Source of the DNA: a virus
Length of the DNA: 39,729 nucleotides
Reading direction: 5' to 3' (one strand)
IMG/VR virus record: IMGVR_UViG_3300025655_006702
Span: 1 to 39,729 of that record
The position numbers were made by a program, and so were the translations under genes. The notes beneath the pieces are model-generated. The model was not told where the DNA came from. It searched no databases and saw only the letters and a list, made by a program, of their open reading frames with translations. Below, piece by piece: positions 4,045-26,953 of the stretch. Positions within the stretch are counted from its first letter, which is position 1. Each line of letters opens with the position of its first letter.

Positions 4045-4053
4045 GAGAAAATA

Positions 4054-4266: not shown

Positions 4267-4283
4267 TTATAAAAGGAAACAAC

Positions 4284-6920: not shown

Positions 6921-6927
6921 GGATGTT

Positions 6928-7710
6928 ATGCCACATATTTCTTATTCAGAACTTAAAAACTGGACCATGTGTCCACACTACAGGAAATTAGTAAATGAAG
7001 ATAAACTTAATCCGCTTACTGATTCTATTTTTACGACCTTTGGAACGGCTGTTCACTCTGTGTGCGAGGAAATTGCACCAATGGATCACCAAGTTAGCGA
7101 TCCAGCTACACTCTTTGAAAGCCGATTCAAAGAAGAACTCACAAAATTAGAAGATGTAGAGCAAAAAACAATAGATCAATTTATGAATCAAGGCAAGGAG
7201 ATCGTAGTAGAAGTCACCGATGCCTTAAAAGACTATTTTGGTGAGTATGAAGTTCACCAAGTTGAGGAGCAACTCTTTGAGCGAATCATTGAGTTCCCTA
7301 ATAAAGAGTATGACTTTAAGGGCTATGTTGACCTTATCGTTAAGACTCCAGACGGCAAGTACCACATTCTAGACTGGAAGACTTGCTCTTGGGGCTGGGA
7401 TGCCCGTAGAAAAGCAGAAAAGATTACCACTTATCAGCTTACTTTTTACAAAAAGTTCTTTGCTGAAAAATACAGTGTTGACCCATCAATGATTGAGACT
7501 CACTTTGGACTACTCAAGCGAACAGCAAAGAAAGGAAAAAAGGTTGAGATCTTTAGGGTCACAAGTGGTGATAAAAAAACTAAAAATGCTGTTAAACTTT
7601 TGACAGATGCCTTGTATAATATTTCTAACGAAAGACACTTAAAAAATCGGCTAAGTTGTCATAAAATGTATGGAACTTGCCCATTTTTTAAAACGGAACA
7701 TTGTACATGA
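6928..7710 (+). CDS. PD-(D/E)XK nuclease, Cas4/RecB-like, with putative Fe-S cluster
   Basis: This 260-aa protein has Cas4/AddB-type nuclease features. They are S-Y-S-E-L-K-N-W-x-M-C-P at the N-terminus, G-T-A-V-H-S (His43), G-Y-V-D-L-I (Asp135), I-L-D-W-K-T (Asp149 and Lys151) and T-Y-Q-L-T-F-Y (Gln170). Cys15 near the start and Cys244, Cys251 and Cys259 at the end form the split four-cysteine pattern that holds a 4Fe-4S cluster in Cas4 and AddB. T4-like phages use nucleases of this fold in recombination and end processing. No CRISPR genes are nearby, so a Cas4 adaptation role has no support. Its TGA overlaps the next ATG as ATGA, linking it to the glycosyltransferase genes. Confidence 0.85.
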   Translation: MPHISYSELKNWTMCPHYRKLVNEDKLNPLTDSIFTTFGTAVHSVCEEIAPMDHQVSDPATLFESRFKEELTKLEDVEQKTIDQFMNQGKEIVVEVTDALKDYFGEYEVHQVEEQLFERIIEFPNKEYDFKGYVDLIVKTPDGKYHILDWKTCSWGWDARRKAEKITTYQLTFYKKFFAEKYSVDPSMIETHFGLLKRTAKKGKKVEIFRVTSGDKKTKNAVKLLTDALYNISNERHLKNRLSCHKMYGTCPFFKTEHCT

Positions 7711-8969
7711 GTGATAAAAAGATAAAGATATTTACATTAAGCGATCATCCACTTACACCATCTGGTGTTGGAACACAGACAAAATATATCATTGAGGGAA
7801 TGCTCAGAACTGGTAAGTACCAGTTTATTTCTTTTGGTGGTTTGATCAGGCATGAAGATTATCGTCCAATCAAAACAGAAGAGTTTGGTGATGATTGGAT
7901 TATTATCCCTACAGATGGTTATGGAACACAAGAATCTGTTAGAGCTATGCTATGGTCAGAAAAGCCAGATATTGTTTGGTTCATGACAGATCCTCGTTTT
8001 TGGGGCTGGCTATGGCAGATTGAAGAAGAGATTCGCCATAATGTCCCAATGGTCTACTACCATGTATGGGATAACTATCCTTATCCAACTTATAATAAAC
8101 CAAATTACGATAGTAATGACTTTATCGCTACAATATCAAAGGTTACAGATGATATTGTAGCAAATGTCTCACCAGATGTAGACAGGCAGTATGTTCCACA
8201 TGCTGTTAATTTAGATATTTTTAAACCTTTAGAGGATGATTTCCTAGAACAGCTTAGAGCAGATAACTTTAAAGAAAACAAAGACAAGTTTATTGTCTTT
8301 TGGAATAACAGAAATGCTCGCAGAAAGATGGGAGCTACTTTAATTCTTTGGTTTAAGGACTTCTTAGATAGAGTTGGTCATGATAAGGCTGTTCTATTAA
8401 TGCATACTAATCCTAGGGACCAAGCAGGATCCAATCTAGAGGCTTTAATTGAAGACATTGGATTGAACGACGGACAAGTACTTTTCTCAAGAGAAAAGCT
8501 GCATCCTGAGAACTTAGCAGCCATGTATAACATGGTTGATGTTACTATAAACATTTCAGATGCTGAGGGTTTTGGACTTGGAACTCTAGAGTCCTTATCC
8601 TGTGGAACTCCAATCATAGTCAACATGACAGGTGGCTTACAAGAGCAAGTTACAGATGGCGAAGAGTGGTTTGGGGTCGGTTTAGAACCAACCAGTAAGA
8701 CCATTGTAGGCTCACAAGAGGTTCCTTTCATCTATGAGGACAGACTCGCAAAGGAACAGGTTGTAGAGGCTCTCCTAGAGATGTTTAACAAGACTCCCGA
8801 GGAAAGAAAACAGCTTGGTCTGAAGGGTCGTCAACATGTAGAAACTAACTACAACTTTGAAAACTTTATTAAGACATGGGACGAGATTTTTACAAAGGTT
8901 CATGAAGAACATGGATCTTGGGAAACTCGTAACAGAAAACAAAATTGGACATTAAAAGAAGTAGCATGA
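7707..8969 (+). CDS. Glycosyltransferase family 4-type (GT-B)
   Basis: This is a 420-aa retaining GT-B transferase. The start is ATG 7707 (ATGA with the nuclease gene); a TTG at 7701 is rejected. The N-terminal domain opens with I-F-T-L-S-D-H-P then S-G-V-G-T-Q, the glycine-rich acceptor loop of GT4 enzymes. The C-terminal donor domain has S-D-A-E-G-F-G-L-G-T-L-E-S-L-S-C-G-T-P-I, giving the E-x7-E pair Glu287 and Glu295. It would move a nucleotide-activated sugar onto a glycan or protein; donor and acceptor cannot be read. Hand-counted lines are about 45% G+C, like the purA-phoH block and unlike the genes after 10240, suggesting it is an older resident. It overlaps the next gene as ATGA. Confidence 0.88.
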   Translation: MSDKKIKIFTLSDHPLTPSGVGTQTKYIIEGMLRTGKYQFISFGGLIRHEDYRPIKTEEFGDDWIIIPTDGYGTQESVRAMLWSEKPDIVWFMTDPRFWGWLWQIEEEIRHNVPMVYYHVWDNYPYPTYNKPNYDSNDFIATISKVTDDIVANVSPDVDRQYVPHAVNLDIFKPLEDDFLEQLRADNFKENKDKFIVFWNNRNARRKMGATLILWFKDFLDRVGHDKAVLLMHTNPRDQAGSNLEALIEDIGLNDGQVLFSREKLHPENLAAMYNMVDVTINISDAEGFGLGTLESLSCGTPIIVNMTGGLQEQVTDGEEWFGVGLEPTSKTIVGSQEVPFIYEDRLAKEQVVEALLEMFNKTPEERKQLGLKGRQHVETNYNFENFIKTWDEIFTKVHEEHGSWETRNRKQNWTLKEVA

Positions 8970-10243
8970 AAAAGAAGATTTTAGTAAGGGGACCAGCCCT
9001 ATCACAAACTGGTTATGGCGAACAATGCCGTTTTGCTCTTAGGGCTTTAAGATCTAGAGAAGATTTATTTGACATCTATCTCCTTAACATTCCTTGGGGC
9101 GGTACTAACTGGATTTTTGAAGACAGCGAAGAGAGGAGATGGCTAGATGAGCTAATCATCAAAGCCAAACCTTTGCTGGAACAACAAAAGCAAAATCCAC
9201 AAATGCCCATCTTTGACATTTCTCTTCAGGTAACGATTCCAAATGAGCTACAAAGAATGGCTCCACAAAACATTCTTTACACAGCAGGAATTGAAACAGA
9301 TAAAGCTTGTCAGGAATGGATTGGCAAATGTCACCAGTTTGCCGACAAGATTCTTGTTATCTCAGAACATGCTAAGGCAGGACTACAGGTTCCAATCAAG
9401 GCTCAAGATCAAAATGGAAATGAACTAGACTTTGTTCTAGATAAGCCAATTGAAGTAGTTCACTATCCTGTCAAGAAAGTCGAGACAAAAGAGCTAGATC
9501 TTCAACTAGAAACAGACTTCAACTTCCTTGCTATCTCACAGTGGGGACCACGAAAGAACTTAGCTAACACAATTGGCTGGTTTTGTGAGGAATTCAAAGA
9601 TAATTCAAATGTTGGTTTAGTAGTTAAAACTTTTGCGAAGGGCAATAGTCAAATAGACAAAGACTTCTTAGAGAAAGCTCTCAAGTCTGTTTTGGACAAC
9701 TTCCCAGATAGAAAGTGTAAGGTTTATTTCCTTCATGGTTACATGAACGAGCAAGAGCTACACTCGCTTTATGTTCATCCAAAGATTAAAGCAATGGTCA
9801 ACTTTGGTCATGGAGAAGGCTATGGTTTGCCTCTATTTGAAGCAGCTTACTCAGGGCTTCCTGTAATCACCCATGACTTCGGAGGGCAAAAGGACTTCCT
9901 CTATGCCCCTAAGAAGGATAAGAAGGGTGTAGAGAAGCTCAGAGCCCATTTCAGTAGGGTTAATCACGAACTCAAGCCAGTTCAAAAAGAAGTTCTTTGG
10001 AAGGGTGTAATTGAGCCTGACATGCAGTGGGCTTATCCAAACGAATCTAGCTGTAAGATAGCTATGCGCGAAGCTGTAAAGAACTATGGGCTATTACAGG
10101 GCGAAGCAAAGCGATTGAAGGAATGGTTGGAGCAAGAGTTTGAAGAGGATAAAAAATACGACTCTTTTGTACAATCACTATATGGCGAAGAATTAGAAAT
10201 ACAGTCAGAAATTGACGATCTATTTAATCAACTAGAGCTATGA
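8966..10243 (+). CDS. Glycosyltransferase family 4-type (GT-B)
   Basis: This protein has 425 residues from ATG 8966; an in-frame TTG at 8945 lies inside the previous gene and is rejected. The N-terminus reads I-L-V-R-G-P-A-L-S-Q-T-G-Y-G-E, a GT4 acceptor-domain loop. The donor domain has F-G-H-G-E-G-Y-G-L-P-L-F-E-A-A with the E-x7-E pair Glu284 and Glu292, followed by S-G-L-P-V-I-T. The last 90 residues carry long helices ending in acidic residues. It is a tandem partner of the upstream transferase and the two probably act one after the other on the same glycan. Base composition is core-like (about 43% G+C on a counted line). Its stop overlaps the start of the AT-rich part of the cassette by four bases. 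Confidence 0.88.
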   Translation: MKKKILVRGPALSQTGYGEQCRFALRALRSREDLFDIYLLNIPWGGTNWIFEDSEERRWLDELIIKAKPLLEQQKQNPQMPIFDISLQVTIPNELQRMAPQNILYTAGIETDKACQEWIGKCHQFADKILVISEHAKAGLQVPIKAQDQNGNELDFVLDKPIEVVHYPVKKVETKELDLQLETDFNFLAISQWGPRKNLANTIGWFCEEFKDNSNVGLVVKTFAKGNSQIDKDFLEKALKSVLDNFPDRKCKVYFLHGYMNEQELHSLYVHPKIKAMVNFGHGEGYGLPLFEAAYSGLPVITHDFGGQKDFLYAPKKDKKGVEKLRAHFSRVNHELKPVQKEVLWKGVIEPDMQWAYPNESSCKIAMREAVKNYGLLQGEAKRLKEWLEQEFEEDKKYDSFVQSLYGEELEIQSEIDDLFNQLEL

Positions 10244-11874
10244 TTATTGTAGTAGCTGATGCTTTTTCAAATCAGTTTTTAGGCGGCGCCGAATTGACCT
10301 CTGATGCTCTACTTGAAGCCGGTTTTAATAATTATAAAAAAATAAATTCACCAGCTTTAACTGAAGAAATTATTGAAAAATATAAAGATAAAAAGTGGAT
10401 ATTTTTTAATTTTGAATATGTCAATAAAAAATGCCTGCTAAAAGTAGCGACAACGATATTAGACTACAGTGTTGTCGAATACGATTATAAATACTGTAAG
10501 TATAGACTAAAGAGTAAGCATGAAAGCTCTGGTGAAAAGTGTGAATGTGAAAAATCACACAGGGGAAAATTAATAGCAATATTTCTAGCAAAATCAAAAA
10601 ATTTATTTTTTATGTCTAGCGGACAAAAAAATGAATATGAGAACATTTATCCAATATTAAAAAAACATAAATCATCACATGTTTTAAGCTCTTCATTTAG
10701 CAAGAAAAGTTTAAACCAGATACGCTCTTTTTTAAAAAACTCAACAAGTAAAAATGATAAGTATTTAATTTTAAATTCTGATTCTTGGGTCAAGGGAACA
10801 AAAAATTGTGTTGAGTACGCTGAGAAAAATAAATTAAAATATGAATTAGTGGGCGGCTTACAACACAAAGATCTGCTAAAAAAATTATCAGAATCTAAAG
10901 GTTTAATATTTTTACCAAACGGATATGATACTTGTCCGAGAATAGTAATAGAAGCAAAACTTCTTGGTTGCGATGTTATATTAAATGATAATGTTCAACA
11001 CAAAGATGAGCCTTGGTTTAACGACAGTTCTAGTATTTTAAATTATGTTGAACAACAAAAGAATTTATTTTACGATAAATGCTTAAAGCAGGAGATAACT
11101 CATAATCGCCTATCTGAAAAAACAAGATTTCATTTTATAATACCGGGATACAACGTTTCTGATTGGATTCAAAAATGCGTGACATCTATAAAACGACAGG
11201 ACTATAAAAATTATTCCGTAACGTACATTGATGATGTTTCAACCGACGACACGGTTGAAATATATGATTCACTAACACCAGATGATTGTGGTTTTACTAA
11301 TTTTGAAAAAATTGTTAATAAAGAAAAAAGTTACGCTTTAAAAGGTATATCAAGTGCCATAAAGACATTAAACATTGACAAAGAAGATGTTATAATCGTT
11401 CTAGATGCGGACGATTGGCTGTCATCACCAGATGTCTTAAGTTATCTAAATACAGTTTATCAAAAGCAAGATTGCTGGATGACCTATGGAAGTTACATGT
11501 ATTATCCATTTGGAGATATGGGTGTAGAGCCTTCTGACTACCCGCAAGATGTGGTGGAGAACAATTTATACAGAGAGGATGATTGGCGAGCATCTCATCT
11601 AAGAACTTTTAAGAAAAAACTTTGGGACAAAATTGACCAACAAGATCTTATAGATGACGACGGAGAATATTATAAAACTGCCTACGATCAGGCTATGATG
11701 TTACCCATGTTAGAGATGGCAAGGGAAAGAGCAAAATACATTCCAGAAGTTCTACATGTGTACAATAGAGCAAACGCTATAAACGTCGATAAACAAAAAC
11801 AAAAACAACAATATGAAACAATGCTTAGAATACGAAAGCAAAAAAAGTATGAAAGGGCAGACTTTGAAGATTAG
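10240..11874 (+). CDS. Two-domain glycosyltransferase (GT-B-like plus GT2)
   Basis: This is a 544-aa fusion. Residues 1-285 resemble half of a GT4 enzyme: G-G-A-E-L-T near the start and P-N-G-Y-D-T-C-P-R-I-V-I-E-A-K-L-L-G-C-D-V, where the first Glu of E-x7-E is Asp230 and the second is Glu238. Residues 296-510 are a GT2 (GT-A) domain with F-I-I-P-G-Y-N-V, D-D-V-S-T-D-D-T and the metal-binding D-A-D-D-W at 389-393. An unusual cysteine group (Cys86, Cys101, Cys103 with His106) sits in the first domain and could bind a metal. The fusion could add two sugars in sequence. It starts with ATGA coupling and marks a sharp drop in G+C (a counted line is 27%). Confidence 0.82.
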   Translation: MIIVVADAFSNQFLGGAELTSDALLEAGFNNYKKINSPALTEEIIEKYKDKKWIFFNFEYVNKKCLLKVATTILDYSVVEYDYKYCKYRLKSKHESSGEKCECEKSHRGKLIAIFLAKSKNLFFMSSGQKNEYENIYPILKKHKSSHVLSSSFSKKSLNQIRSFLKNSTSKNDKYLILNSDSWVKGTKNCVEYAEKNKLKYELVGGLQHKDLLKKLSESKGLIFLPNGYDTCPRIVIEAKLLGCDVILNDNVQHKDEPWFNDSSSILNYVEQQKNLFYDKCLKQEITHNRLSEKTRFHFIIPGYNVSDWIQKCVTSIKRQDYKNYSVTYIDDVSTDDTVEIYDSLTPDDCGFTNFEKIVNKEKSYALKGISSAIKTLNIDKEDVIIVLDADDWLSSPDVLSYLNTVYQKQDCWMTYGSYMYYPFGDMGVEPSDYPQDVVENNLYREDDWRASHLRTFKKKLWDKIDQQDLIDDDGEYYKTAYDQAMMLPMLEMARERAKYIPEVLHVYNRANAINVDKQKQKQQYETMLRIRKQKKYERADFED

Positions 11875-12742
11875 ATTAGAAAATGTAAATTTAAATAGCA
11901 ATTCTGGACCAAACTCCTTTGCTCAAAAGCTAGTAAAGGAGTTTCAAATTCAAGGGCATTCTTTTGCATCTAAAGATTATGACAGCGCATTGTGCTTTAT
12001 AGAGGATCATTCAAACTTGGCGGGTAAAAACCTCTATCAAAGGTTAGATGGCATTTATTTCAATACTCAGTTCAACTATGATATGCAAAATTCAAATATT
12101 TTGAAAACTTATCAAAAAGCTCAAGGAATAATATTTCAATCAAACTTCAGTAAAAAATTAGTTACATCTTTTTTTGGACCACATCCAAATACAATAATTA
12201 TACACAACGGCGCCAATCTAGATTTAATAGAAAAGATAGAACCGATAAAAAATAACATAATTGATCGTTATGAAACAGTTTGGTCTTGCGCTGCTACTTG
12301 GAGACCACATAAAAGACTAAAAGACAACATAGAGTATTTTTTAGAGCACAAGGGTCAAAATGACTGCTTGGTGATTGCCGGTAAACCAGATTACTTTTAT
12401 AAGGATCCAAACATTTTTTATGTTGGGGAATTGAATTATGAAAAACTGTTATCCGTTTATAAAAAAAGCAAGTACTTTATACATCTTGGCTGGCTTGACA
12501 ATTGCCCCAATGTTGTTGTAGATGCTAGAGCCTGCGGCAGTCAAATTATTTGTTGTTCTGCTGGTGGTACTCAAGAAGTCGCAGGTCTAGACGCGACAGT
12601 TGTTGAAGATAATTGGGATTTTAAGCCAACAAGGCTGTATGAACCACCTACACTAGACTTTTCAAAGAAAATTAAAAATAAGTATGATTCATGTTACGAT
12701 ATAAGAGAAGTAGCTAAAAAATACATTGAGTTTATTAAATGA
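11864..12742 (+). CDS. Glycosyltransferase family 4-like
   Basis: The likely start is TTG 11864, preceded by AAAGGG at 11852-11857 at good spacing and giving an M-K-I-R-L-E-N-V beta strand. ATG 11849 or 11813 would add 5 or 17 residues inside the previous gene with no clear ribosome site. The 292-aa product is a compact GT-B enzyme: S-G-P-N-S-F-A-Q-K-L acceptor loop, S-N-F-S-K-K-L, H-N-G-A-N-L-D, then the donor half with W-L-D-N-C-P-N-V-V-V-D-A-R-A-C-G. The usual E-x7-E pair is D-x7-D here. It ends in an ATGA overlap with the next transferase. The family call is good; the sugar is unknown. Confidence 0.78.
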   Translation: MKIRLENVNLNSNSGPNSFAQKLVKEFQIQGHSFASKDYDSALCFIEDHSNLAGKNLYQRLDGIYFNTQFNYDMQNSNILKTYQKAQGIIFQSNFSKKLVTSFFGPHPNTIIIHNGANLDLIEKIEPIKNNIIDRYETVWSCAATWRPHKRLKDNIEYFLEHKGQNDCLVIAGKPDYFYKDPNIFYVGELNYEKLLSVYKKSKYFIHLGWLDNCPNVVVDARACGSQIICCSAGGTQEVAGLDATVVEDNWDFKPTRLYEPPTLDFSKKIKNKYDSCYDIREVAKKYIEFIK

Positions 12743-13659
12743 AAATATTTACCGTAGTAGCTAATGAAAACTGGATATGTGATAGACTTGTAGGTGAGTG
12801 GCAAGAACACGCCGGTTATGCAAAAAGTTACACCGATGCAGAAGTTATCTGGGTTTTTAGTCCGTCTAATTGGAGGCTGGTGCCACCAGAGATTTTAAAA
12901 ACAAAAAAAGTTGTTGTAACAATACATCACATTACTCCACAAAAATTCACAAAAGATTCGTTAAGAGAGTTTTTAATTAGAGATAAAATAGTTGATTTTT
13001 ATCATGTTACTTGTAAACAGACCGAAGATTTTTTGAAAAAAATTACTAAAAAACCAATTTTTAAACAGCCATTTTGGGTTAATTCAAAAAATTGGTTTAG
13101 TTCGCCAAAGCAGGAGCTTAGACAAAAATATAGTATTTCTCAAGATGCATTTTTAGTAGGTTCTTTTCAAAGAGACACAGAGGGCTATGATTTAAAATCT
13201 CCAAAACTAGAAAAAGGACCAGACTTATTCTGTGATATCGTAGAAAAAATGAACAATCAAGTGGGCGATTTACAAGTTTTGTTAGCCGGTTGGCGAAGAC
13301 AATATGTTATTGGCAGGTTAGAAAAAGCAGGAATAAAATATCAGTATTTTGAGAGACCTGATTTATCGGTTGTTAATGATTTATATAACTGTTTAGACTT
13401 GTATGTCGTTTCAGCTAGAACCGAGGGTGGACCACAATCAATTGTAGAGTGTGCTGCCAACAAAACTCCAATAATTTCTACTGATGTGGGAATTGCCTCT
13501 GTTATTCTGGCACCAGAGAGCATATACGATCCAGCTATAGAAATTGGAAAGCCAAATGTCGAATTAGCGTATGAAAACGTTCAAAAATATTTAGTTCCCT
13601 CTGGTTTCAAGCCGTTCATTGATTTTTTTAAAACAAGTTTTAAGTTGCAAAATGTATAA
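12739..13659 (+). CDS. Glycosyltransferase family 4-like
   Basis: This is a 306-aa short GT-B protein. The acceptor half begins I-F-T-V-V-A-N-E-N-W-I-C-D-R-L and contains V-T-I-H-H-I-T-P. The donor half has S-F-Q-R-D-T-E-G, L-L-A-G-W-R-R, and A-R-T-E-G-G-P-Q-S-I-V-E-C-A-A-N-K-T-P with the E-x7-E pair Glu229 and Glu237. It lies between another GT4-like gene and the dioxygenase gene, with ATGA coupling at the front and an 8-base overlap at the back, so it belongs to the same translation unit. Donor and acceptor are not predictable. Confidence 0.82.
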   Translation: MKIFTVVANENWICDRLVGEWQEHAGYAKSYTDAEVIWVFSPSNWRLVPPEILKTKKVVVTIHHITPQKFTKDSLREFLIRDKIVDFYHVTCKQTEDFLKKITKKPIFKQPFWVNSKNWFSSPKQELRQKYSISQDAFLVGSFQRDTEGYDLKSPKLEKGPDLFCDIVEKMNNQVGDLQVLLAGWRRQYVIGRLEKAGIKYQYFERPDLSVVNDLYNCLDLYVVSARTEGGPQSIVECAANKTPIISTDVGIASVILAPESIYDPAIEIGKPNVELAYENVQKYLVPSGFKPFIDFFKTSFKLQNV

Positions 13660-14326
13660 ACAATTTTATAAAGATGGTCTCTGTCAGGTTAATTTTGGTG
13701 GAAAAAAATTAGATCAAGTTTTAACTAAAATTTTAAAAAACGATTTAAAACACGGTTATAACTTAGAATCAAAATATCTTGGCAGTTATGATTTAAGACC
13801 AGATGTTTTGTCGTATGATAAGATTTTTATTGAGTCGCTCAGACAACACAATATTAAAAAAATTATAGAGGAAACCACACTAAAAAATTATTCATTATTT
13901 CATATACAAATTAGAGTGGTTGAAAACACTAATAGCTATATGGATTGGCATAGGGACACGTACTATGATGAGAGTGGAGAATTACACGGAAAAAGCCCAC
14001 ATGGCGTTAAATTAATTTACTATCCAGAGTTAAATAAAGAAAAACAAGACAGGCTTTTATATTTGTGTGGGTCAAATAGAATTCTTTTTCCTAATAACTT
14101 GTATGATAGAGGGCTTTTTAAAATATTAGAAAGTAAGAAGGTAAAATCAAATAAAGATAAGGCTATATTGTTTGATACTAATGGTTTACACTCGGTCTGC
14201 CCAGAGGCTAAAAATAATAAATCTATACGTCTAATATATTCGTTTTTAAGTAAAAAACAAATTTTGGATGACCATAGTGATAGTAAGTTGCATATGAAGA
14301 CAATGCAAATGTTTGAGGAAATTTAA
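13652..14326 (+). CDS. Putative 2-oxoglutarate/Fe(II) dioxygenase, phytanoyl-CoA dioxygenase-like
   Basis: This protein has 224 residues from ATG 13652, overlapping the previous stop by 8 bases; a TTG at 13619 is deep inside that gene and is rejected. A double-stranded beta-helix metal site is visible: D-W-H-R-D with His100 and Asp102, the distal His180 in N-G-L-H-S-V, and Arg193 in S-I-R-L-I-Y as the 2-oxoglutarate salt-bridge candidate. Enzymes of this fold hydroxylate small molecules, sugars, lipids or side chains. Between glycosyltransferase and oxidoreductase genes, a sugar-hydroxylating or oxidative tailoring step is the natural inference, but a lipid or protein substrate is possible. 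The facial triad supports an active enzyme. Confidence 0.7.
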   Translation: MYKQFYKDGLCQVNFGGKKLDQVLTKILKNDLKHGYNLESKYLGSYDLRPDVLSYDKIFIESLRQHNIKKIIEETTLKNYSLFHIQIRVVENTNSYMDWHRDTYYDESGELHGKSPHGVKLIYYPELNKEKQDRLLYLCGSNRILFPNNLYDRGLFKILESKKVKSNKDKAILFDTNGLHSVCPEAKNNKSIRLIYSFLSKKQILDDHSDSKLHMKTMQMFEEI

Positions 14327-16991: not shown

Positions 16992-16993
16992 CT

Positions 16994-19638: not shown

Positions 19639-19648
19639 GAAATTTGTT

Positions 19649-20452
19649 ATGAGTAAAATACAAATAGGTGTAGCCTGTGGTTCAAATTGTGAATTATATG
19701 TTAATTTTTTAATGAAAACAATAGAAAACACTGTAAGCGATAAAAAAAGAATAGAGTTTATTTTGGGAATAAATAAGCCGAACGTCAATAGAGAATCTCT
19801 TTTAAAATACAAAGATGTTTTTAACATAAAGATTATAGATGCTCTATCAAATGAGCATGGATCTATGGGTCATGGATATTGCTTAGATAAAATACTAGAA
19901 CAAATGAGTTCTGAATATGGAATGATTGTTGATTGTGACGTTGCATTTTTAGAAAAAGATTGGGATGTTAAACTAATAAATGAGCTTGATGATAAAAAAA
20001 TTATCATCGGAGCCGCAACAGAAAACAATCATCACCATTATTATAATTTTCCTTTCACGATTATGGTTTTATTTAAAACTAAAATTTTAAAAACCTTAAA
20101 TGTTTCTTTTAAGCCAAAATTAGTTGATATAATCTTGACAGAAAAAAATGCAAAACTTTTTGGAAGAAAAGTCGGAGACAAAATACATTTAGATACTGCG
20201 TGGCAATTGCCGCTAAAGATAAAAAGCGCGGGCTACGATGGTATATCATTGCCACTGATCAGCCCTAGATGTGACCATGGAAGAGAGAATATGCTGTTTA
20301 TGAAAGAAGGGATGAGAGGCGAAGAACACCAGTTAAATGGGGTGCCAATATTTACACATGTAGGTCGATCATCTACAAGAGTATTTTCTAGTGATCCTAT
20401 TGTGATAAAATGGAAGAACAGGGTGGAAGAGTGGTTGGAAGAAAAAAGATAG
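19649..20452 (+). CDS. GT-A fold glycosyltransferase-like protein
   Basis: This is a 267-aa protein with an I-G-V-A-C-G-S first strand and a Y-G-M-I-V-D-C-D-V-A-F segment whose Asp95-Cys-Asp97 is a DxD metal/nucleotide-sugar site. The remainder has L-D-T-A-W-Q-L-P-L-K-I and a C-terminal helix. The layout fits GT2-like or related GT-A transferases, but it lacks the usual family N-terminal 'P-x-Y-N' motif, so the subfamily is unclear. The start has only a weak ribosome site. The 3' end overlaps the next gene, perhaps by 43 bases. Confidence 0.65.
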   Translation: MSKIQIGVACGSNCELYVNFLMKTIENTVSDKKRIEFILGINKPNVNRESLLKYKDVFNIKIIDALSNEHGSMGHGYCLDKILEQMSSEYGMIVDCDVAFLEKDWDVKLINELDDKKIIIGAATENNHHHYYNFPFTIMVLFKTKILKTLNVSFKPKLVDIILTEKNAKLFGRKVGDKIHLDTAWQLPLKIKSAGYDGISLPLISPRCDHGRENMLFMKEGMRGEEHQLNGVPIFTHVGRSSTRVFSSDPIVIKWKNRVEEWLEEKR

Positions 20453-21609
20453 CAATTTTTTTAGGAGACTGTTTTTGGAGTAGCACGCCTTATGATGGCA
20501 TACCTCTATATAACTTTTTAAAAAATCATTATAGCGTAGATTTTTTAATGTTTGAATCTGATATAAGATTAAACAAAGTCTTTAATTCTAGTGAAAAGTT
20601 TAATTTTGATACAAAAAAATTTAAAAATTTAAGTAATTTAAAAAAAATCAAAAATTGGGATGATCTTTATAATGTTTCTTTAAACTATTCTCTCATAATA
20701 ACAAGCTCTCGTATCGCTCCAAAAACAAGATTTCCATTTAAGTCAAAAAAATTTAGAAGTTTGACCGAGTGTCCCATCGCAGTATGGGATATTGGGGGAG
20801 CCGACATATTAACAGATGCAGTCCAATTTGCTGATTATTTTTTTGTCAAAGGACCTATCTGGAAAAAGTGGATGATAAAAATGGGTTACGATGAAAAAAC
20901 AATTTTTATCACCGGCTCGCCACATTATGACAAATATTTAGAAGAGTATGAAACACACGCTATCGAAAAGGTGTTGAATCGTCAACAATTTAATGAAAAA
21001 TACGATTTAAAATATGAAAAAAGAATATTGCTAGCTCCTAGCAATCCTGCGAGCCACACTAAACAATTTAATGAAAGTATGAATTCTTTAGAAACCATGG
21101 TTAGATTGTGTGAGAAAAATAACATTGAGCTACTTCTTAAAACCTACCCTCACGATTACATATTTTACGATAATGAGATTCCATACAGCGGCATTTACAA
21201 GAGAAAGTATACTAATAAACCACAATACCAATATATTGCAGACATGTTCCCGACAATTAAAATTGTTGAAAGTCAGGATCATTTTGCAGCAGTTAAACAT
21301 GTTGATAAAATTTACAACATGGCGGGTAGTAGCATAGCTTGGGAAACTTTCTTCACAAACTCGGTTTCTTATTCGACAAACTTTAAAAAACAAAAATACT
21401 ATAAAAAATTATCTTATTTACCAGAATATATTGAATTTCCTGACGAAGAAATGAACATTCATGTAGATAATTGTGAACAAATCATAAAAGGGGCGTATAA
21501 TATAAATAAAGATTTGTGTTCTAATTTTATTTTAAAAAATTTTATTTTAAAAGAGATATCAATCTTTAATATATTTGAAGCAGTTAAACAAATTTTAAAT
21601 GGTCATTAG
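20410..21609 (+). CDS. GT-B-like transferase (CDP-glycerol glycerophosphotransferase/capsule type)
   Basis: This protein has 399 residues from ATG 20410. GTG 20431 is an alternative start that would shorten the overlap with the previous gene and begin close to the first beta strand (K-I-A-I-F-L-G-D). The C-terminal half has I-T-G-S-P-H-Y-D-K-Y, I-L-L-A-P-S-N-P, L-L-L-K-T-Y-P-H-D and G-S-S-I-A-W-E-T-F-F, the pattern of GT-B enzymes such as CDP-glycerol glycerophosphotransferases and capsule polymerases. A hydrolysing UDP-GlcNAc epimerase shares parts of this fold but is a weaker match. It may transfer an activated sugar or polyol phosphate to the growing chain. Confidence 0.6.
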   Translation: MEEQGGRVVGRKKIAIFLGDCFWSSTPYDGIPLYNFLKNHYSVDFLMFESDIRLNKVFNSSEKFNFDTKKFKNLSNLKKIKNWDDLYNVSLNYSLIITSSRIAPKTRFPFKSKKFRSLTECPIAVWDIGGADILTDAVQFADYFFVKGPIWKKWMIKMGYDEKTIFITGSPHYDKYLEEYETHAIEKVLNRQQFNEKYDLKYEKRILLAPSNPASHTKQFNESMNSLETMVRLCEKNNIELLLKTYPHDYIFYDNEIPYSGIYKRKYTNKPQYQYIADMFPTIKIVESQDHFAAVKHVDKIYNMAGSSIAWETFFTNSVSYSTNFKKQKYYKKLSYLPEYIEFPDEEMNIHVDNCEQIIKGAYNINKDLCSNFILKNFILKEISIFNIFEAVKQILNGH

Positions 21610-21612
21610 TAG

Positions 21613-22530
21613 ATGAAAATTCTGTGTATAACCCCCGTAAAACATTTAAATGGCGTAGCCGAACTTCTCTCCTCTAAAGGAGAAACATTCTATTACGAGG
21701 GGCATAAAAAAGCAGAGATAAGACAGATATTACTACGCAACAATATAGATGTAATAGTGTGTAACCCTAATCAGCAACTCTACTTAATTGATAAAGAAAT
21801 ATTAGACGGAACTTCTGTAAAGATAATTAATACTTGTTCAACTGGGCTAAATCATATTGATTTAGAGTATTGTAAATCAAAAAGAATTAAAATACAATGT
21901 CTTAAAAATGATTACAAACTTATTAATCAACTACCTTCTACATCCGAACTAGCTTTTGGTTTAATGGTTTCACTTTTAAGAAAAATTCCTTCAAGCCAAT
22001 CCCATGTTTCAAAATATCAGTGGGACTACACCCAGTTTATGGGTAGGCAGGTTAAAGATTTAAAAATAGGAATTGTTGGCTATGGTCGCCTCGGTAAAAT
22101 GATGCATAAATTTTGTCAAGCATTTGAAGCAGAGGTCTATATCTGCGATCCATACAAACCAGAGGGGACAAATACGTTAGAGGAAATATTTTTAAATTGT
22201 GATGTTGTTTCTCTTCACGTTCATGTGACGAATGAAACAAGACATATGATTAATAAGGATTTGTTAAATCTTGCCACTAAAGAACTTTATTTAGTTAATA
22301 CTTCAAGAGGCGAGGTGGTAAGGGAGGAAGACATTGTTTCTGCTTTAGCTAATAACAAATTAACTGGTTATGCCACAGATGTAGTACAAGATGAATTTGG
22401 GTCTTTAAAGCAATCTCCAATTATAGCTGCAATGAACGAGGGCGAAAACATAATAGTAACACCTCACGTTGGAGGCATGACTGTTGAAGGTCAGACAAAA
22501 GCTTATAAATGGTCGATAGGAAAATTATAA
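21613..22530 (+). CDS. D-isomer-specific 2-hydroxyacid dehydrogenase
   Basis: This 305-aa protein has the standard layout for the family. The NAD loop is V-G-Y-G-R-L-G at 155-161 followed by I-C-D-P-Y, whose Asp179 favours NAD. The catalytic set is Arg232 in N-T-S-R-G-E, Glu261 in V-Q-D-E-F and His285 in T-P-H-V-G-G. All are present, so it should interconvert a 2-keto acid and a D-2-hydroxy acid. In a sugar cassette it could make a lactyl- or glyceryl-type decoration or act in a keto-acid branch; a role tied to the NeuB-like enzyme is speculative. The gene begins three bases after the previous stop. Confidence 0.88.
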   Translation: MKILCITPVKHLNGVAELLSSKGETFYYEGHKKAEIRQILLRNNIDVIVCNPNQQLYLIDKEILDGTSVKIINTCSTGLNHIDLEYCKSKRIKIQCLKNDYKLINQLPSTSELAFGLMVSLLRKIPSSQSHVSKYQWDYTQFMGRQVKDLKIGIVGYGRLGKMMHKFCQAFEAEVYICDPYKPEGTNTLEEIFLNCDVVSLHVHVTNETRHMINKDLLNLATKELYLVNTSRGEVVREEDIVSALANNKLTGYATDVVQDEFGSLKQSPIIAAMNEGENIIVTPHVGGMTVEGQTKAYKWSIGKL

Positions 22531-22531
22531 A

Positions 22532-23230
22532 ATGCATATATATGAATCAGCCTTTGATCTTGAACAAAGAGAGGCAATTACAAAAAAAATTCAAGAATTT
22601 ATAGAAAATAGAGATCAGATTACAATGTTGGTGATTGGCTCACCAGATTGCAAAGAAATAAAAAATTTAAGTGAAAAAATTAAAGAAAAAATAAATTTAT
22701 TTGTTTTTGACTTTGAAATAAAACGCGGTAAAATATCAAATAATTTTAAAAAATCTTTTAATTTTTATGAAGAGTACTCTGGCGATTTTTTTAAAAATAT
22801 AGAAAAAATTAAGATAAAGGCAGACTTTGTTTTTCATCGATGGTTTTTGCACCATTGTACAGATCATCAAAAGATAGAATCGTTTAAGATAATTAAAAAT
22901 TTGCTAGCAAATGAGGGTGAGTTATTAATAATAGACTGGATGATACCGGATTATTCTTCTGAACAGGAAAGGTGGAAATCATCAAAAAAATACTATAAAT
23001 ACCACGAACAGCATGGTTTAAAGATTGCAAAAAACAAACAAGAACATAATTTTTCAAAAATAAACACTCCCAACGGAAAAGGTGGAAAGTTTATTTCTCA
23101 TCAAAAATTAGAAGAAATTATGAAAAAAGAAAATTTAGAGTTTAAACGAGAGATCCTACACCAGTCAAAAGTAGAAGATCCAGAATTGTTTGGGGCAAAT
23201 TTATACATATGCAAGGAAGGAGGTAATTAA
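22532..23230 (+). CDS. SAM-dependent methyltransferase-like protein
   Basis: This 232-aa Lys-rich protein resembles class I methyltransferases. Strand 1 is M-L-V-I-G-S-P-D. The central D-F-V-F-H-R-W-F-L-H-H-C is strand 4 and its loop, followed by L-L-A-N-E-G-E-L-L-I-I-D-W-M-I-P (helix E and strand 5), a strong methyltransferase hallmark. The glycine motif I is degenerate (G-S-P-D-C), so either a distant family or reduced SAM binding is possible. It lies between the hydroxyacid dehydrogenase and the cytidylyltransferase, with a TAATG junction at the back. The likely target is a sugar or sugar acid. Confidence 0.6.
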   Translation: MHIYESAFDLEQREAITKKIQEFIENRDQITMLVIGSPDCKEIKNLSEKIKEKINLFVFDFEIKRGKISNNFKKSFNFYEEYSGDFFKNIEKIKIKADFVFHRWFLHHCTDHQKIESFKIIKNLLANEGELLIIDWMIPDYSSEQERWKSSKKYYKYHEQHGLKIAKNKQEHNFSKINTPNGKGGKFISHQKLEEIMKKENLEFKREILHQSKVEDPELFGANLYICKEGGN

Positions 23231-23766
23231 TGAAAATATTAGCAATCATACCAGCAAAATTAGACTCAAAAAGGCTATCAAGGAAAAACATTAGAGAACT
23301 AAATGGAAGACCGATGTTAATACATTCAGTTGAATATGCAAAAAATAGCAAATACGATGTGGATGTGATCGTTTCTTCTGAAAGTGATATCGTCAAGAGT
23401 TTATGCGAACAAAATAATATAAAATTTCATAAAAGACAATTGTCTTTATGCGGTGAAACTGAAGTTGTTGATGTTTACTTGAATGTTGTAAGAGCGGTAC
23501 TTGGCAAATACGACCTTGTAGTAGGTCTTCAACCCGATAATCCAAATAGATCACATACTCTTGATGAGTGTATTGATTATATGATTGAAAACAAATACGA
23601 TGATTTGATTACTGTGAATCCAAGTTATAAGCGTAGTGGTTCCGTTCGGATATTTAAGTATGATTATTTATATTCTGGTCAAGTAAGTAAAAGATTGGGC
23701 TGTATCAAGGATGAAGCTGTGGACATTCATTACGAATCAGATTTAGAATTGATAAGGGAGTGTTAA
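23230..23766 (+). CDS. Compact acylneuraminate cytidylyltransferase-like protein
   Basis: This is a 178-aa member of the NeuA/PseF/KdsB nucleotidyltransferase family. The N-terminus I-I-P-A-K-L-D-S-K-R-L-S-R-K-N matches the CTP loop. L-N-G-R-P-M-L-I-H-S, V-I-V-S-S-E-S, and L-Q-P-D-N-P-N-R-S (usually L-Q-P-T-S-P-x-R) follow, and the end I-H-Y-E-S-D-L-E-L-I corresponds to the family's closing helix. It is about 50 residues shorter than typical NeuA yet has both ends, so the loss is internal. It should couple a sugar acid to CMP, or another sugar to CDP. A nearby NeuB-like synthase supports a sugar acid. TAATG links it to the previous gene. Confidence 0.75.
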   Translation: MKILAIIPAKLDSKRLSRKNIRELNGRPMLIHSVEYAKNSKYDVDVIVSSESDIVKSLCEQNNIKFHKRQLSLCGETEVVDVYLNVVRAVLGKYDLVVGLQPDNPNRSHTLDECIDYMIENKYDDLITVNPSYKRSGSVRIFKYDYLYSGQVSKRLGCIKDEAVDIHYESDLELIREC

Positions 23767-23767
23767 A

Positions 23768-24364
23768 ATGTTATATACAAAAAAAATGAAGCGCACGTTC
23801 AAGGGTCATGCGCTAGATCAAATAACTCAATTAAAAGAAAAATACTGTGTAAGTCTAAATAATCCAATTATAGCTGATATTGGTGCTAATATTGGATATT
23901 GGTCTGAATCATTTTTAGAAATCTATCCTGCATGTGAACTTCACGCATATGAGCCACACCCGGATAACTTAAAAGAACTAAAACAATTAAACGATGGTAG
24001 ACTTACAATACATGAATACGGACTGTTTGACTCTGATGGTGAGTTTACAATAGGAATGCGTTCTGATGGCAAATCAAATAATGGAACCTATGGAATCTTT
24101 AATAAAGAAAATCCAACTAGCGTTCCTTTCAAAAACGCGAACAATGAAACTATAAGACCAAACATTGTTAAAATGGATGCGGAGGGCGCTGAACCAAATA
24201 TACTAGAGTGTTCGGATTTCTTTTCAGAAACAAAGGCAATTTTAATTGAATTACTTCATAGGGATGACTTTGGCTTGAACCAAAAAATCGAAAATAATTT
24301 AAAAAAACTTGGATTTAAATATAAGTGTAGTTTAGGGAGAAACGATCAACTATGGTTAAGATAA
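23768..24364 (+). CDS. FkbM-family methyltransferase
   Basis: This 198-aa protein has a clear SAM site: I-A-D-I-G-A-N-I-G-Y-W-S with Asp37 and the glycines of motif I. The FkbM signature V-K-M-D-A-E-G-A-E-P-N-I-L (Asp138, Glu140, Glu143) comes later. The A-Y-E-P-H-P-D-N segment is the acidic SAM ribose ligand region. FkbM enzymes O-methylate hydroxyls on sugars and polyketides, and methylated surface sugars are a common phage or host variation. It overlaps the NeuB-like gene by 13 bases and starts one base after the cytidylyltransferase stop. Confidence 0.85.
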   Translation: MLYTKKMKRTFKGHALDQITQLKEKYCVSLNNPIIADIGANIGYWSESFLEIYPACELHAYEPHPDNLKELKQLNDGRLTIHEYGLFDSDGEFTIGMRSDGKSNNGTYGIFNKENPTSVPFKNANNETIRPNIVKMDAEGAEPNILECSDFFSETKAILIELLHRDDFGLNQKIENNLKKLGFKYKCSLGRNDQLWLR

Positions 24365-25152
24365 TTGCAGAAATAGGGTGGAATCACTGTGGTGATATGA
24401 ACTTAGCCAAAGAAATGATTTTGGCAGCGCACAACAGTGGCGCTGATTACGCAAAATTTCAAACATGGTCTGTTGATAGGCTTAAATCTGGCAGTTGGGA
24501 CTATGATGGTAGAAGACAAATATATGAAAAAGCTGAATTGACACATGAAAAACATTTAGAGTTGAAAAAATACTGTGAATTGATTGGTATTAAATTTTTA
24601 TCTAGTGTTTTTAGTATAGAAGATGCTAAAATGTTAGTTAAAATAGGGTGTAAAGAGGTTAAAATACCAAGTTTTGAGTCTAGAAATGAAGCGTTGATTG
24701 CATATTGCTTAAAAAATTTTAAAACTGTTTTTATGTCTACTGGCACCTCTTCTTACGATGAGATTAGGAACGTTTATGAAAAAATAAACCATGAAAGTTT
24801 TTATTTATTACATTGTGTATCTTCTTACCCATGCAAGCCGGATATAGCAAATATACCAAAAATGTTAAAATTAAAACAATTAACAGAAAAAATTGGGTAT
24901 AGCGATCACATACAAGGGGTTGAATCGGCAAAGGTCGCGATTGAGTTTGGCGCTAAAGTAATTGAAAAGCACTTTACTACAGATAACGATTTGCCGGGAA
25001 GAGATAATAAATTTGCAATTTTACCAAGCGATATGAAAAATTTATCAAATTATATAAAGCTGAGAAACGAAATGCTAATTGATCATGGCTCTGGATATCA
25101 AAGCTGTGAGAAGGACTCAAGAGAAAATTATGCAGGCAGATTTGATGGATAA
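24352..25152 (+). CDS. NeuB/SpsE-like sialic-acid-type synthase lacking SAF domain
   Basis: The family condenses phosphoenolpyruvate with an amino sugar to make a nonulosonic acid. All core TIM-barrel motifs are visible: I-A-E-I-G-W-N-H-C-G-D at 5-15, A-K-F-Q-T-W, V-K-I-P-S-F-E, F-M-S-T-G-T-S, L-L-H-C-V-S-S-Y-P, I-G-Y-S-D-H, V-I-E-K-H-F-T and G-R-D-N-K-F-A. At 266 aa the chain ends after the barrel, so the C-terminal antifreeze-like (SAF) domain of about 70-80 residues found in NeuB, PseI and LegI is missing. In those enzymes that domain reaches over the active site of a partner subunit, so its loss could change the substrate. It overlaps FkbM at the front and the GT2-like gene at the back. 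Confidence 0.85.
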   Translation: MVKIIAEIGWNHCGDMNLAKEMILAAHNSGADYAKFQTWSVDRLKSGSWDYDGRRQIYEKAELTHEKHLELKKYCELIGIKFLSSVFSIEDAKMLVKIGCKEVKIPSFESRNEALIAYCLKNFKTVFMSTGTSSYDEIRNVYEKINHESFYLLHCVSSYPCKPDIANIPKMLKLKQLTEKIGYSDHIQGVESAKVAIEFGAKVIEKHFTTDNDLPGRDNKFAILPSDMKNLSNYIKLRNEMLIDHGSGYQSCEKDSRENYAGRFDG

Positions 25153-25786
25153 GGTAAGTGTAATTATTAGAAATAAGAACGAGAGTCAATTTATAGGATT
25201 CGCCCTTCAATCAGTTTGTGATCACTTACCTAATTCTAATGTTGTTGTGGTAGACGATAATTCTTTAGATGATTCCATGGATATTGTAAAAATGTTTAAT
25301 ACAAGATTAAACATAAAAACAATTAAAATTGATGACTATTCACCAGGAAAAGCATTAAATATAGCAATTAATTATTGCCAGCATGAAACTATTTTAATAT
25401 TGTCTGCCCATGCTCAGATTGTAAGAATGGATCTGCACTCTGTAAAGAAAAAATTAAAAAAATTTGCCGCAGTATTTGGAAACCAAACACCAATATATCG
25501 TGGTAAAAAGATTACAAAAAGATATATTTGGTCTCATTTTATTGATGGCGAGGTAACAAATATGTGGTCCGACATTGAAAATCGACCTTTTTTACACAAT
25601 GCTTTTTGTTTTTATAATAAAAAAGACTTAATCGATCTACCATTTGATGAAAGCTTATCTGGAAAAGAAGATAGGTATTGGGCTATAGATCTACTGAAGA
25701 AGAAAAAATCTTACTTGTATACACCAGAAATAGAGGTTAATCATTATTACACTGTTAATGGCGCAACTTGGAAAGGCATTGGATAG
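25145..25786 (+). CDS. GT2-like glycosyltransferase with altered DxD
   Basis: This protein has 213 residues from ATG 25145, which overlaps the previous stop by 8 bases. A TTG at 25079 would put 22 extra residues inside the neuB-like gene and is rejected. The GT-A start is plain: V-S-V-I-I-R-N-K-N-E then V-V-V-D-D-N-S-L-D-D-S. Where the DxD motif is expected the sequence is L-S-A-H-A-Q. GT2 enzymes with S-A-H-x in this place are known, so it need not be inactive. The C-terminus has E-D-R-Y-W-A, fitting the acidic base motif (E-D). It closes the run of overlapping genes before the 58-bp gap. Confidence 0.75.
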   Translation: MDKVSVIIRNKNESQFIGFALQSVCDHLPNSNVVVVDDNSLDDSMDIVKMFNTRLNIKTIKIDDYSPGKALNIAINYCQHETILILSAHAQIVRMDLHSVKKKLKKFAAVFGNQTPIYRGKKITKRYIWSHFIDGEVTNMWSDIENRPFLHNAFCFYNKKDLIDLPFDESLSGKEDRYWAIDLLKKKKSYLYTPEIEVNHYYTVNGATWKGIG

Positions 25787-25844
25787 AACTTTTTAAATTA
25801 AAAAAAACTTAATTTGTGTTAAAATTAAAAAAAGGGGGTTGTGC
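25787..25844 (+). promoter_or_regulatory. AT-rich intergenic region with nested short palindromes and a strong Shine-Dalgarno
   Basis: This 58-bp gap is the longest one inside the window. It holds AAATTAA (25795-25801), TTAATTT (25809-25815) and AAATTAA (25822-25828), so the middle unit can pair with either flank. The TTAAAAT at 25819-25825, preceded by TGTG, is a possible -10 element with no convincing -35. AAGGGGG (25832-25838) is a Shine-Dalgarno six bases before ATG 25845. The gap may carry a promoter or a weak transcription pause; all-AT stems make a strong terminator unlikely. Confidence 0.4.
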
Positions 25845-26768
25845 ATGAGTAGATGTTTGGTTACTGGTTATAAAGGATATATTGGAAATAAATTATATAA
25901 TAAATTAAAACAACTGGGTCATGATGTAATTGGTATAGATTTGCAAGATGGTCACGACATTAACAGCGATTTAAATCACGGTTTAGATAAGAAATCATTT
26001 CATCCGAAGTATTATAATTTTAAGCCTGAATACATTTTTCACTTAGCATATATTCCAAGAGTAGCCTATAGTGTTGAAAATCCCGTAGAGACAACAAAAA
26101 ATAACATTCTATGCACAACAAACGTTTTAAATTTTGCAAAATCGGTTGCAGCAAAAAGAGTTATTTTTTCAAGCTCTTCTTCTGTTGTTGGAGATGGTGA
26201 CGGACCCGTTAGCCCATACGCACTACAAAAACTTTATGACGAAATGCAGTGTAGGCTATGGTCTAAAATTTATGGCTTAGACACAGTGTCTTTAAGATAT
26301 TTCAATGTTTATTCAGAAGATCAGGAGGCTAAAACTGCATACGCTACTGCTATAGCTAATTGGATGCACTATATAAAAGGAGACAAGAAGCCATTTTTAA
26401 ATGGTGATGGCGAGAACAGAAGGGACATGTTGCATGTTAATGACGCAGTGTCGGCAAATGTGTTCGCTATGAATTATGATGGACTATTTGCAGGAAAGTC
26501 TTTTGATGTTGGCACGGGAGACAATATATCTTTAAATGAAGTAATTAAAATAATACATAGTCACTTCCCAGAAGTAGAGTTTGAAAGGCGTCCACCAAGA
26601 AAGGGGGATGTTTTACTTACCAGGGCAAAAACATCAGATCTTAAAAAGCTGGGCTGGGAAACCACTGTGGATATAAACAGTGGGATAAATTCCTGTTTTA
26701 AACAGTTAAAACAATATAAGCAGGGTATTGGAAGATCTCAATTTAGAAATAACAATGGAGTAATGTAA
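25845..26768 (+). CDS. NAD-dependent epimerase/dehydratase (GalE-like)
   Basis: This protein has 307 residues from ATG 25845; the Shine-Dalgarno at 25832-25838 fits this start, not the TTG at 25839. It is an extended short-chain dehydrogenase: G-Y-K-G-Y-I-G at 8-14 for NAD, F-S-S-S-S-S-V-V-G, P-Y-A-L-Q-K with Tyr125 and Lys129, S-L-R-Y-F-N-V-Y, and G-D-G-E-N-R-R-D-M-L-H-V-N-D for the sugar-nucleotide end. The serine in place of the dehydratase Asp-Glu pair points to a 4-epimerase or reductase rather than a dehydratase. It follows the only real gap in the cassette and ends in TAATG with the next phage gene. Confidence 0.85.
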   Translation: MSRCLVTGYKGYIGNKLYNKLKQLGHDVIGIDLQDGHDINSDLNHGLDKKSFHPKYYNFKPEYIFHLAYIPRVAYSVENPVETTKNNILCTTNVLNFAKSVAAKRVIFSSSSSVVGDGDGPVSPYALQKLYDEMQCRLWSKIYGLDTVSLRYFNVYSEDQEAKTAYATAIANWMHYIKGDKKPFLNGDGENRRDMLHVNDAVSANVFAMNYDGLFAGKSFDVGTGDNISLNEVIKIIHSHFPEVEFERRPPRKGDVLLTRAKTSDLKKLGWETTVDINSGINSCFKQLKQYKQGIGRSQFRNNNGVM

Positions 26769-26953
26769 TGAAACTATCAGATCAAGCACTAGGAGCCGTA
26801 ATGATGGCTCTACAAAAGTCACTACTAGAACAATCAGACATTGTACCAGTTCTTAAAAATTTTGACTTTGTTCTAGATGGCGAAGAGTTATCAGTAACTA
26901 ACCCACCAACCTTTAAGGTTGATGAGCAGCAGTCTGAGTTTGTTTATGAATAA
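26768..26953 (+). CDS. Small hypothetical phage protein (61 aa)
   Basis: The function is not known. The N-terminal M-K-L-S-D-Q-A-L-G-A-V-M-M-A-L-Q-K-S-L is an amphipathic helix, followed by E-Q-S-D-I-V-P-V-L and an acidic tail ending in F-V-Y-E. I recall similar short proteins in T4-like marine phages, which marks the return from the sugar cassette to core phage genes. It is coupled upstream by TAATG and overlaps the cupin gene by 8 bases. Confidence 0.65.
   Translation: MKLSDQALGAVMMALQKSLLEQSDIVPVLKNFDFVLDGEELSVTNPPTFKVDEQQSEFVYE

Follow-up and report, generated by a model that had tools for sequence, protein, structure and literature searches.

Clusters of lipopolysaccharide (LPS) genes have long been reported in phages without a tested role. 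What such genes do for a phage, and what the functional unit is, are the questions raised by a 39.7-kb record of an uncultivated virus (IMGVR_UViG_3300025655_006702, positions 1 to 39,729; hereafter the window). In this record 21 intact, co-directional open reading frames (ORFs), overlapping or nearly abutting, tile positions 7701-26768 of the plus strand. The original prediction described 7707-26768 as one phage-borne glycan synthesis cassette, and its account of the gene arrangement agrees with this tiling. The real unit, however, is one fixed slot whose contents are swapped, located between a core glycosyltransferase (GT) gene, GT2, and a conserved ORF of 61 amino acids (aa), R61, near genes for a PhoH-like protein, a nuclease and a late sigma factor. 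The first two genes of the run, GT1 and GT2, belong to the clade core, and only 10240-26768 is a variable island. This swapping at a fixed slot is our main point and could not be seen from a single sequence. Within the window's clade the shared genes are under selection and are traded as cassettes at one constant site, and such swaps probably give the phage particle or the infected cell a different sugar coat.

A fixed slot with exchanged contents

The left anchor of the island is GT2 (8945-10243), a GT4-type glycosyltransferase by Pfam that was found in 88/88 related intervals; it was not a selection criterion for relatives, six records excepted. GT1 (7701-8969, first ATG at 7707), also GT4-type by Pfam, was present in 87/88 intervals, a frequency that reflects the selection of records. 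The right anchor, R61 (26768-26953), was recognised in 69/88 intervals and gave no match in Pfam or PHROG searches. A gp55-like late sigma factor (27805-28506, PHROG_234) served as the right search anchor. All four are encoded on the plus strand. We took 100 IMG/VR records, 50 found by GT1 and 50 by sigma, as a subset of the more distant loci found by these two genes, with longer contigs preferred. The second anchor was present in 48 of the 50 GT1-found and 44 of the 50 sigma-found records (92/100), and the two anchors were collinear in 92/92 records at a spacing of 2.0-26.3 kb (median 16.2 kb). The other 8 records say nothing on this point because their contigs end 5.7-21.6 kb from the anchor.

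Nine near-duplicates among these 92 records (G008, G009, G013, G018, G030, G039, G082, G084 and G085) were left out, and others may remain. The 83 records kept, the window and records G002-G006 gave 89 intervals with 2043 ORFs. These ORFs were called by a greedy script (at least 60 aa); gene counts are therefore approximations, and both the anchors and a number of spurious ORFs are among the 2043. Only 22 of them lie on the minus strand, and the islands are almost wholly co-directional. Both GT2 and R61 were recognised in 70 intervals, with an island of 4.3-24.2 kb in 68 and none in 2. In these two, G057 and G063, GT2 runs into R61 with an overlap of 29 nt and 14 nt, respectively. R61 was not recognised in the remaining 19/89 intervals, and the island end is uncertain there. 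Packing was tight throughout. The first gene past GT2 starts at most 20 nt away in 89/89 intervals, R61 starts at most 20 nt past its upstream neighbour in 60/70, and 1044/1116 internal island gaps are 20 nt or shorter.

The 19-gene island of the window (10240-26768, plus strand) is replaced in G002, G003 and G004 and absent in the two empty slots. The flanks of the three replaced loci are ~79-89% identical to the window in nucleotide sequence. This similarity stops inside the 3' end of GT2 (10141-10161) and resumes at R61 (26745-26767). Between these edges the interiors measure ~7.7, 19.2 and 15.0 kb, respectively, and hold 0 genes in common with the window island (at least 40% identity); its sole nucleotide traces are two short matches, one of 262 bp at 69% and one of 26 bp to G004. 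Among the 88 relatives, 18 of the 19 island genes were shared by 0-16 (at least 40% identity, 70% coverage) and the GalE-like gene by 22.

We then compared 3741 pairs of island-bearing intervals, taking GT1 plus sigma as the measure of anchor identity. Anchor identity was 80-90% in 47 pairs (37 intervals), and 25 of these 47 had no common island gene at all. Conversely, anchor identity was 58.8% between G005 and G102, and the two have 8 island genes in common, on average 94.5% identical. Island genes are thus often replaced wholesale between related phages and are sometimes common to distant ones.

These observations bear on whether the island could be stuffer, host DNA in decay or the product of a chimaeric assembly. 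A 2010 comparison, in the part available, left open whether cyanophage LPS clusters are functional or stuffer DNA (PMC3037559), and the G+C content of the island (29-37%) lies under that of the left flank (35-42%); the right flank is likewise G+C-poor (30-38%). The gene-decay and chimaera scenarios that the original prediction had named as grounds for its rejection were checked, and neither was seen. A second contig, G001 (IMGVR_UViG_3300025674_008651), matches window positions 1-35620 at 99.992% through both suspected junctions, 10,240 and 26,768. G001 may derive from a related assembly, and the three more distant contigs, G002, G003 and G004, show identical junctions. With this contig and the 92/92 collinear records, a chimaera of phage and bacterial DNA was rejected. 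For decay, we estimated the ratio of nonsynonymous to synonymous substitution rates (dN/dS) for 61 shared island genes from seven chosen phage pairs. It was estimable for 52 and below 0.3 in all 52 (below 0.1 in 40); in the 9 gene pairs with saturated dS, the ratio of the corresponding proportions (pN/pS) was below 0.4. Shared island genes are under purifying selection. Together with the tight packing this led us to reject decay or stuffer DNA, and we attach next to no likelihood to this whole group of explanations.

Gene content and soluble make-up of the islands

The enzymes encoded by the window island were annotated by profile searches. Six GTs of the run exceed the curated Pfam cut-off (starting at 7701, 8945, 10240, 12739, 15328 and 25079). 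Within 10240-14326 lie a GT2-family GT with an extra N-terminal half (10240), a GT4-like enzyme narrowly under the Pfam cut-off (11813; 24.8 vs 26.4 bits), a GT4 enzyme (12739) and a possible 2-oxoglutarate (2OG) oxygenase (13619; weak, E 0.0094). A Rossmann-type oxidoreductase (14327; weak, E 0.0017), a further GT4 enzyme (15328) and a DUF2334 protein (16269), presumably a deacetylase, follow at 14327-16991. The next segment (16994-19638) holds a possible methyltransferase (16994; weak, E 0.0057), an RmlB-like member of the short-chain dehydrogenase/reductase (SDR) family (17592) and a radical S-adenosylmethionine (SAM) enzyme with a SPASM domain (18529). At 19649-22530 we found a protein faintly resembling GT family 2 (19649; E=0.067), a 399-aa protein with faint Epimerase_2 and NeuC resemblance (20410; Epimerase_2 E=0.00015, NeuC 24.9 vs a cut-off of 235.9 bits) and a 2-hydroxyacid dehydrogenase (21613); a PDB sequence search with the protein at 20410 gave no match.

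The last part of the island (22532-25152) begins with a possible methyltransferase (22532; weak, E 0.0009). It is followed by a short cytidine monophosphate (CMP)-sugar transferase (23230; Pfam E 6.5e-18, only 178 aa, 131/217 profile positions covered), an FkbM methyltransferase (23768) and a NeuB-family synthase of 266 aa without C-terminal extension (24352; Pfam E 1.2e-57, 196.9 vs 399.65 bits for the NCBIfam equivalog). A GT2-family GT (25079-25786) and a GalE-like SDR (25839-26768) complete the run at 25079-26768, separated by its largest intergenic gap, 52 nt (25787-25838). All of these genes are on the plus strand, and the proteins at 16269, 18529, 21613 and 23768 are well supported by their profiles, as are those at 23230 and 24352 with the limits just given. 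For the RmlB-like and GalE-like proteins the SDR fold is well supported, and both fall under the NCBIfam equivalog cut-offs.

This census upholds the RmlB-like, GalE-like and radical SAM enzymes of the original prediction and trims other entries. Its 'about ten' GTs is an upper bound, with seven supported from these profile matches and the proteins at 19649 and 20410 only faintly similar. One of its two other oxidoreductases (21613) and one of its three methyltransferases (23768) are well supported; the second oxidoreductase, the remaining methyltransferases and the 2OG dioxygenase-like protein give weak matches below cut-off. The deacetylase-like protein is real as a DUF2334 match, its activity being our assumption. 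Both members of the NeuB/NeuA-like pair pass Pfam, with the qualifications given above. A sialic-acid-type CMP-nonulosonate pathway, taken as NeuC, NeuB and NeuA each above its family cut-off, was not found in the window, and precursors of a nonulosonate-type sugar may come from the host.

The same kinds of enzyme recur across the clade. In 150 island proteins drawn at random, with the 25 commonest of 148 families considered, SDR epimerases/dehydratases led (23), followed by NeuB (7), by DegT aminotransferases, uridine diphosphate (UDP)-sugar dehydrogenases, FkbM methyltransferases and GT family 1 (6 each) and by GT family 2 (5). NeuB-family synthases occurred in 23/50 records, among which G000 and G001 are the same phage.

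In a Kyte-Doolittle scan, 0/2043 ORFs in the 89 intervals had three or more predicted spans, two spans being predicted in 11 and one in 151. Among the 1325 island proteins of at least 100 aa, which come from the 83 fetched records only and of which the longest has 909 aa, three or more spans were predicted in 0, two in 2 and one in 48. The same scan gave 6-11 spans for Escherichia coli Wzx, Wzy and WaaL and 5 for WcaJ. The flippase profile PF01943 matched 0/50 records (control 13/14 genomes), other polymerase, ligase and transporter families not being profile-searched, and the initiating transferase profile PF02397 matched 0/50 (control 9/14 genomes). With 0/2043 multi-span ORFs and these two families absent, the islands are without membrane export machinery of their own.

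A phage-borne, non-chimaeric glycan gene set is therefore real; the original claim that it can by itself make and transfer a full glycan is not supported, since neither a flippase, an initiating phosphoglycosyltransferase nor proteins with at least three spans were found and NeuC is unconvincing. Because the island proteins are soluble only, they are a misfit with self-contained surface-polysaccharide synthesis. The slot resembles bacterial O-antigen and capsule loci in that interior sugar genes are exchanged between conserved flanks. Unlike those loci, its islands are without Wzx, Wzy, ligase or initiating transferase in the span scan and the two profile searches, and a self-contained Wzx/Wzy locus was rejected. 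Seroconversion gtr operons of temperate phages are marked by a GtrA-type flippase and membrane glucosyltransferases; this candidate too was set aside, no multi-span protein having been found in the 89 intervals.

A close published likeness is to the LPS gene clusters of cyanophages P-SSM2, S-SSM7 and S-SM2, which the available part of the 2010 comparison describes as stretches of GT and sugar-nucleotide genes carried by T4-like phages, one of them near phoH (PMC3037559). The islands described here, too, lie in T4-like phages and are densely packed with genes for soluble sugar enzymes. In the P-SSM2 clusters (193428-205500 and 235282-241291; L302), 0/23 annotated cluster genes had a predicted span, with three spans in the PsbA control, so these clusters too are without their own export machinery. 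Whereas the cyanophage clusters occur in some genomes only and in more than one place, as far as that part of the source goes (PMC3037559), the clade described here has a single GT2-R61 slot in 92 records, empty or filled.

Phage sugar clusters and hypervariable regions are thus already known from the portions available of two studies (PMC3037559, PMC7029224). A description of the GT2-R61 slot was not found in our literature search, which covered subscription papers poorly and is weak evidence. As far as that limited search shows, what is new is that one address occurs either empty or filled, that wholesale exchange and sharing across lineages have been measured, and that multi-span proteins are absent from every island examined and from the P-SSM2 clusters.

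Candidate acceptors of the glycan

The original prediction had left host-surface remodelling and virion glycosylation side by side. The soluble make-up favours an acceptor that can be reached from the cytosol, a virion protein or at most the LPS core, and is compatible with either. We consider the chances evenly balanced that the slot serves a clade of T4-like marine phages as a glycotype-switch locus, its soluble enzymes acting in the cytosol to add sugars to proteins of the virion. Recombination within the conserved flanks would exchange the islands, and during infection the island enzymes would make and modify activated, unusual sugars. GT1 and GT2 may lay down a common inner part of the glycan, and the variable oligosaccharide would be built directly onto a cytosolic acceptor, for which one or more virion proteins are the likeliest candidates, by analogy with chlorovirus capsid glycosylation. 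An island swap would then alter the sugar coat and with it the binding, exclusion or neutralisation of the particle.

Chlorovirus capsid glycans are made by virus enzymes that are mostly predicted to be soluble, with two GTs in all strains, according to the accessible text (PMC5408694). The window's clade is alike in its mostly soluble virus GTs, two conserved and the others variable. It is also alike in structure: models of GT1 (from an alignment of 47 sequences) and GT2 (from 29), with mean predicted local distance difference test (pLDDT) scores of 88 and 91.9, both had the chlorovirus GT4 enzyme 3oy2 as top PDB match, followed by many GT4-like enzymes. The match list of GT2 also holds the protein O-glycosyltransferases GtfA and SdgB. 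The chlorovirus system differs in that its genes are scattered, in a eukaryotic virus, without an exchange slot, and in that its acceptor is known, as described in that text (PMC5408694), the acceptor here being a candidate.

Alternatively, the soluble enzymes might work from the cytosolic side and extend or modify the LPS core or lipooligosaccharide of the host prior to its flipping by the host, and so block superinfection or re-adsorption of progeny. The gene types fit this, and LPS-core enzymes are largely soluble (in our scan E. coli waaF, waaO and waaP had 0 spans and waaG had 1). Host-surface remodelling is also the published reading for the GTs of pelagimyophages, marine T4-like phages whose host recognition cluster is likewise a hypervariable island rich in GTs (PMC7029224, in the part available). 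According to the same partial text, that cluster lies between VrlC and gp14, together with tail fibres, and its divergence was judged gradual. Our slot is instead GT2-R61 near the late sigma gene, has no protein longer than 909 aa and shows many wholesale exchanges; no search was made with profiles for VrlC, gp14 or tail fibres. Remodelling would demand a matching host acceptor for each exchanged island, and it would have to do without a ligase, flippase or initiating transferase of the islands' own. A core GT pair present in phages with or without an island fits a phage-encoded acceptor better. We regard host-surface remodelling, the chief competitor of virion glycosylation, as possible, if rather doubtful.

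Several points weigh against virion glycosylation by exchanged cassettes. The case is built from sequence and models, with a candidate in place of an identified acceptor, and soluble GTs would equally serve changes to the LPS core. Large membrane proteins are seldom carried by phages, so their absence is partly expected. The 3oy2 match is an analogy and weak evidence because the GT4 fold is alike across many functions, and the function of 3oy2 itself is unassigned in the available text (PMC5408694). A late-promoter motif scan gave 9 matches against 4.8 expected, and 4 of 100 shuffles reached 9. Gradual change also occurs, since 13 of the 47 pairs at 80-90% anchor identity keep at least 5 common island genes (14 in G047-G051), and anchor identity was computed from two proteins only. 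A host scan of genome contigs returned 5 contigs of metagenome-assembled genomes (MAGs) from five different taxa, none trustworthy.

A third possible acceptor is DNA, with sugars placed on modified phage bases to evade restriction. Phage GTs can glycosylate DNA, as in T4, and a 2024 paper, by its title alone, reportedly concerns diverse DNA glycans. The 2OG-oxygenase-like protein at 13619 could hydroxylate a base. The thymidylate synthase/hydroxymethylase family (PF00303) was not found in 22 large records, which are not known to be complete (control 9/14 genomes; other base chemistries were not searched), and DNA as the target is unlikely for this reason, as is a T4-like glucosylation route through pyrimidine hydroxymethylation. 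Known DNA sugars, moreover, need far less than an exchanging set of 19 genes. A Tet/JBP search (0/22 large records) was uninformative, its control giving no match either. Overall we judge DNA hypermodification improbable.

Returning to virion glycosylation, we suggest more tentatively, at somewhat less than an even chance, that such loci are serotype-switch loci for the phages' own particles, in which a conserved GT pair for the inner sugars is joined to a slot exchanging whole outer-glycan sets, and that the cyanophage 'LPS clusters' are of the same kind and misnamed. If the target is the virion, phages would possess a diversity of sugar coats akin to the serotypes of bacteria or the antigenic variants of chloroviruses, with consequences for host range, for neutralisation and for how well particles survive in the sea.

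Phage affiliation and neighbouring genes

By profile searches the window carries T4-like genes that include a prohead-protease-like ORF at 4284 and, among its baseplate genes, gp25 at 37993. It is a fragment without gp23, with gp25 and the gp55-like gene; the gp23-type major capsid protein (PF07068) was present in 18/22 large relatives, which places them among the T4-like phages. Near matches in isolate phages were not found for window positions 1-10240 or for the protein at 36044-37993. One gp23 sequence, from G080, was compared with named isolates, and over ~60-66% of its length was closest to Flavobacterium phage immuto (47.8%), followed by Microcystis phage Mel-JY01 (47.3%) and Rhodothermus phage RM378 (40.5%). 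Phage immuto likewise has a nuclease, GT1, GT2 and then a soluble glycan run (14 ORFs, 0 spans). Mel-JY01 has the same order, but GuaB intervenes and GT1 is split; its glycan run has 10 ORFs and 0 spans. In both phages GT1 and GT2 are only 27-33% identical to those of the window, and the late sigma homologues lie elsewhere. In RM378, GT1 is followed by an ORF weakly like GT2 and then by ribonucleotide reductase; a glycan run is absent at this place. The proposed role can be tested directly in those cultured relatives that have the same gene order.

To the left of the core GT genes, on the plus strand (4942-7710), lie genes for a PhoH-like protein (4942-6258), an ORF (6255-6920) and a PD-(D/E)XK-type exonuclease (6928-7710; PHROG), all with homologues in 35/35 relatives that hold 10 kb upstream of GT1. 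In a WOR-3 MAG 'chromosome' (L297, CP070664.1 1478594-1499526), the PhoH and nuclease genes of this clade occur together with an incomplete GT1; the similarity stops inside GT1, and the piece is a misassembly or an integrated phage fragment. Further upstream, 3034-4044 encodes a phage adenylosuccinate synthetase that keeps the GDEGKGK motif and scores higher for PurA (275.9 bits) than for PurZ (125.7 bits), both under cut-off; only 4/35 relatives have the gene in the 10 kb that precede GT1. The GT2 ORF exceeds 1800 nt in 24/89 intervals (e.g. G003), compared with ~1300 nt in the window, owing to a C-terminal extension.

To the right of the slot, the baseplate region (28805-37993) forms a second variable block. 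Identity to G002, G003 and G004 is only ~27-67% for its four large proteins and 68-98% for the bordering genes. Between G003 and G004 this region is 91.8% identical in nucleotide sequence over 9.8 kb, although nothing in their two islands matches at the nucleotide level, so the island moves separately from the baseplate block. Directly past R61, a mannose-6-phosphate-isomerase-type cupin (26919-27308, plus strand, by profile match) is variably present on the right flank. It is 96% identical at the same site in G002, and only distant island copies occur in G003, G005 and G006, as if the gene had shifted between island and flank.

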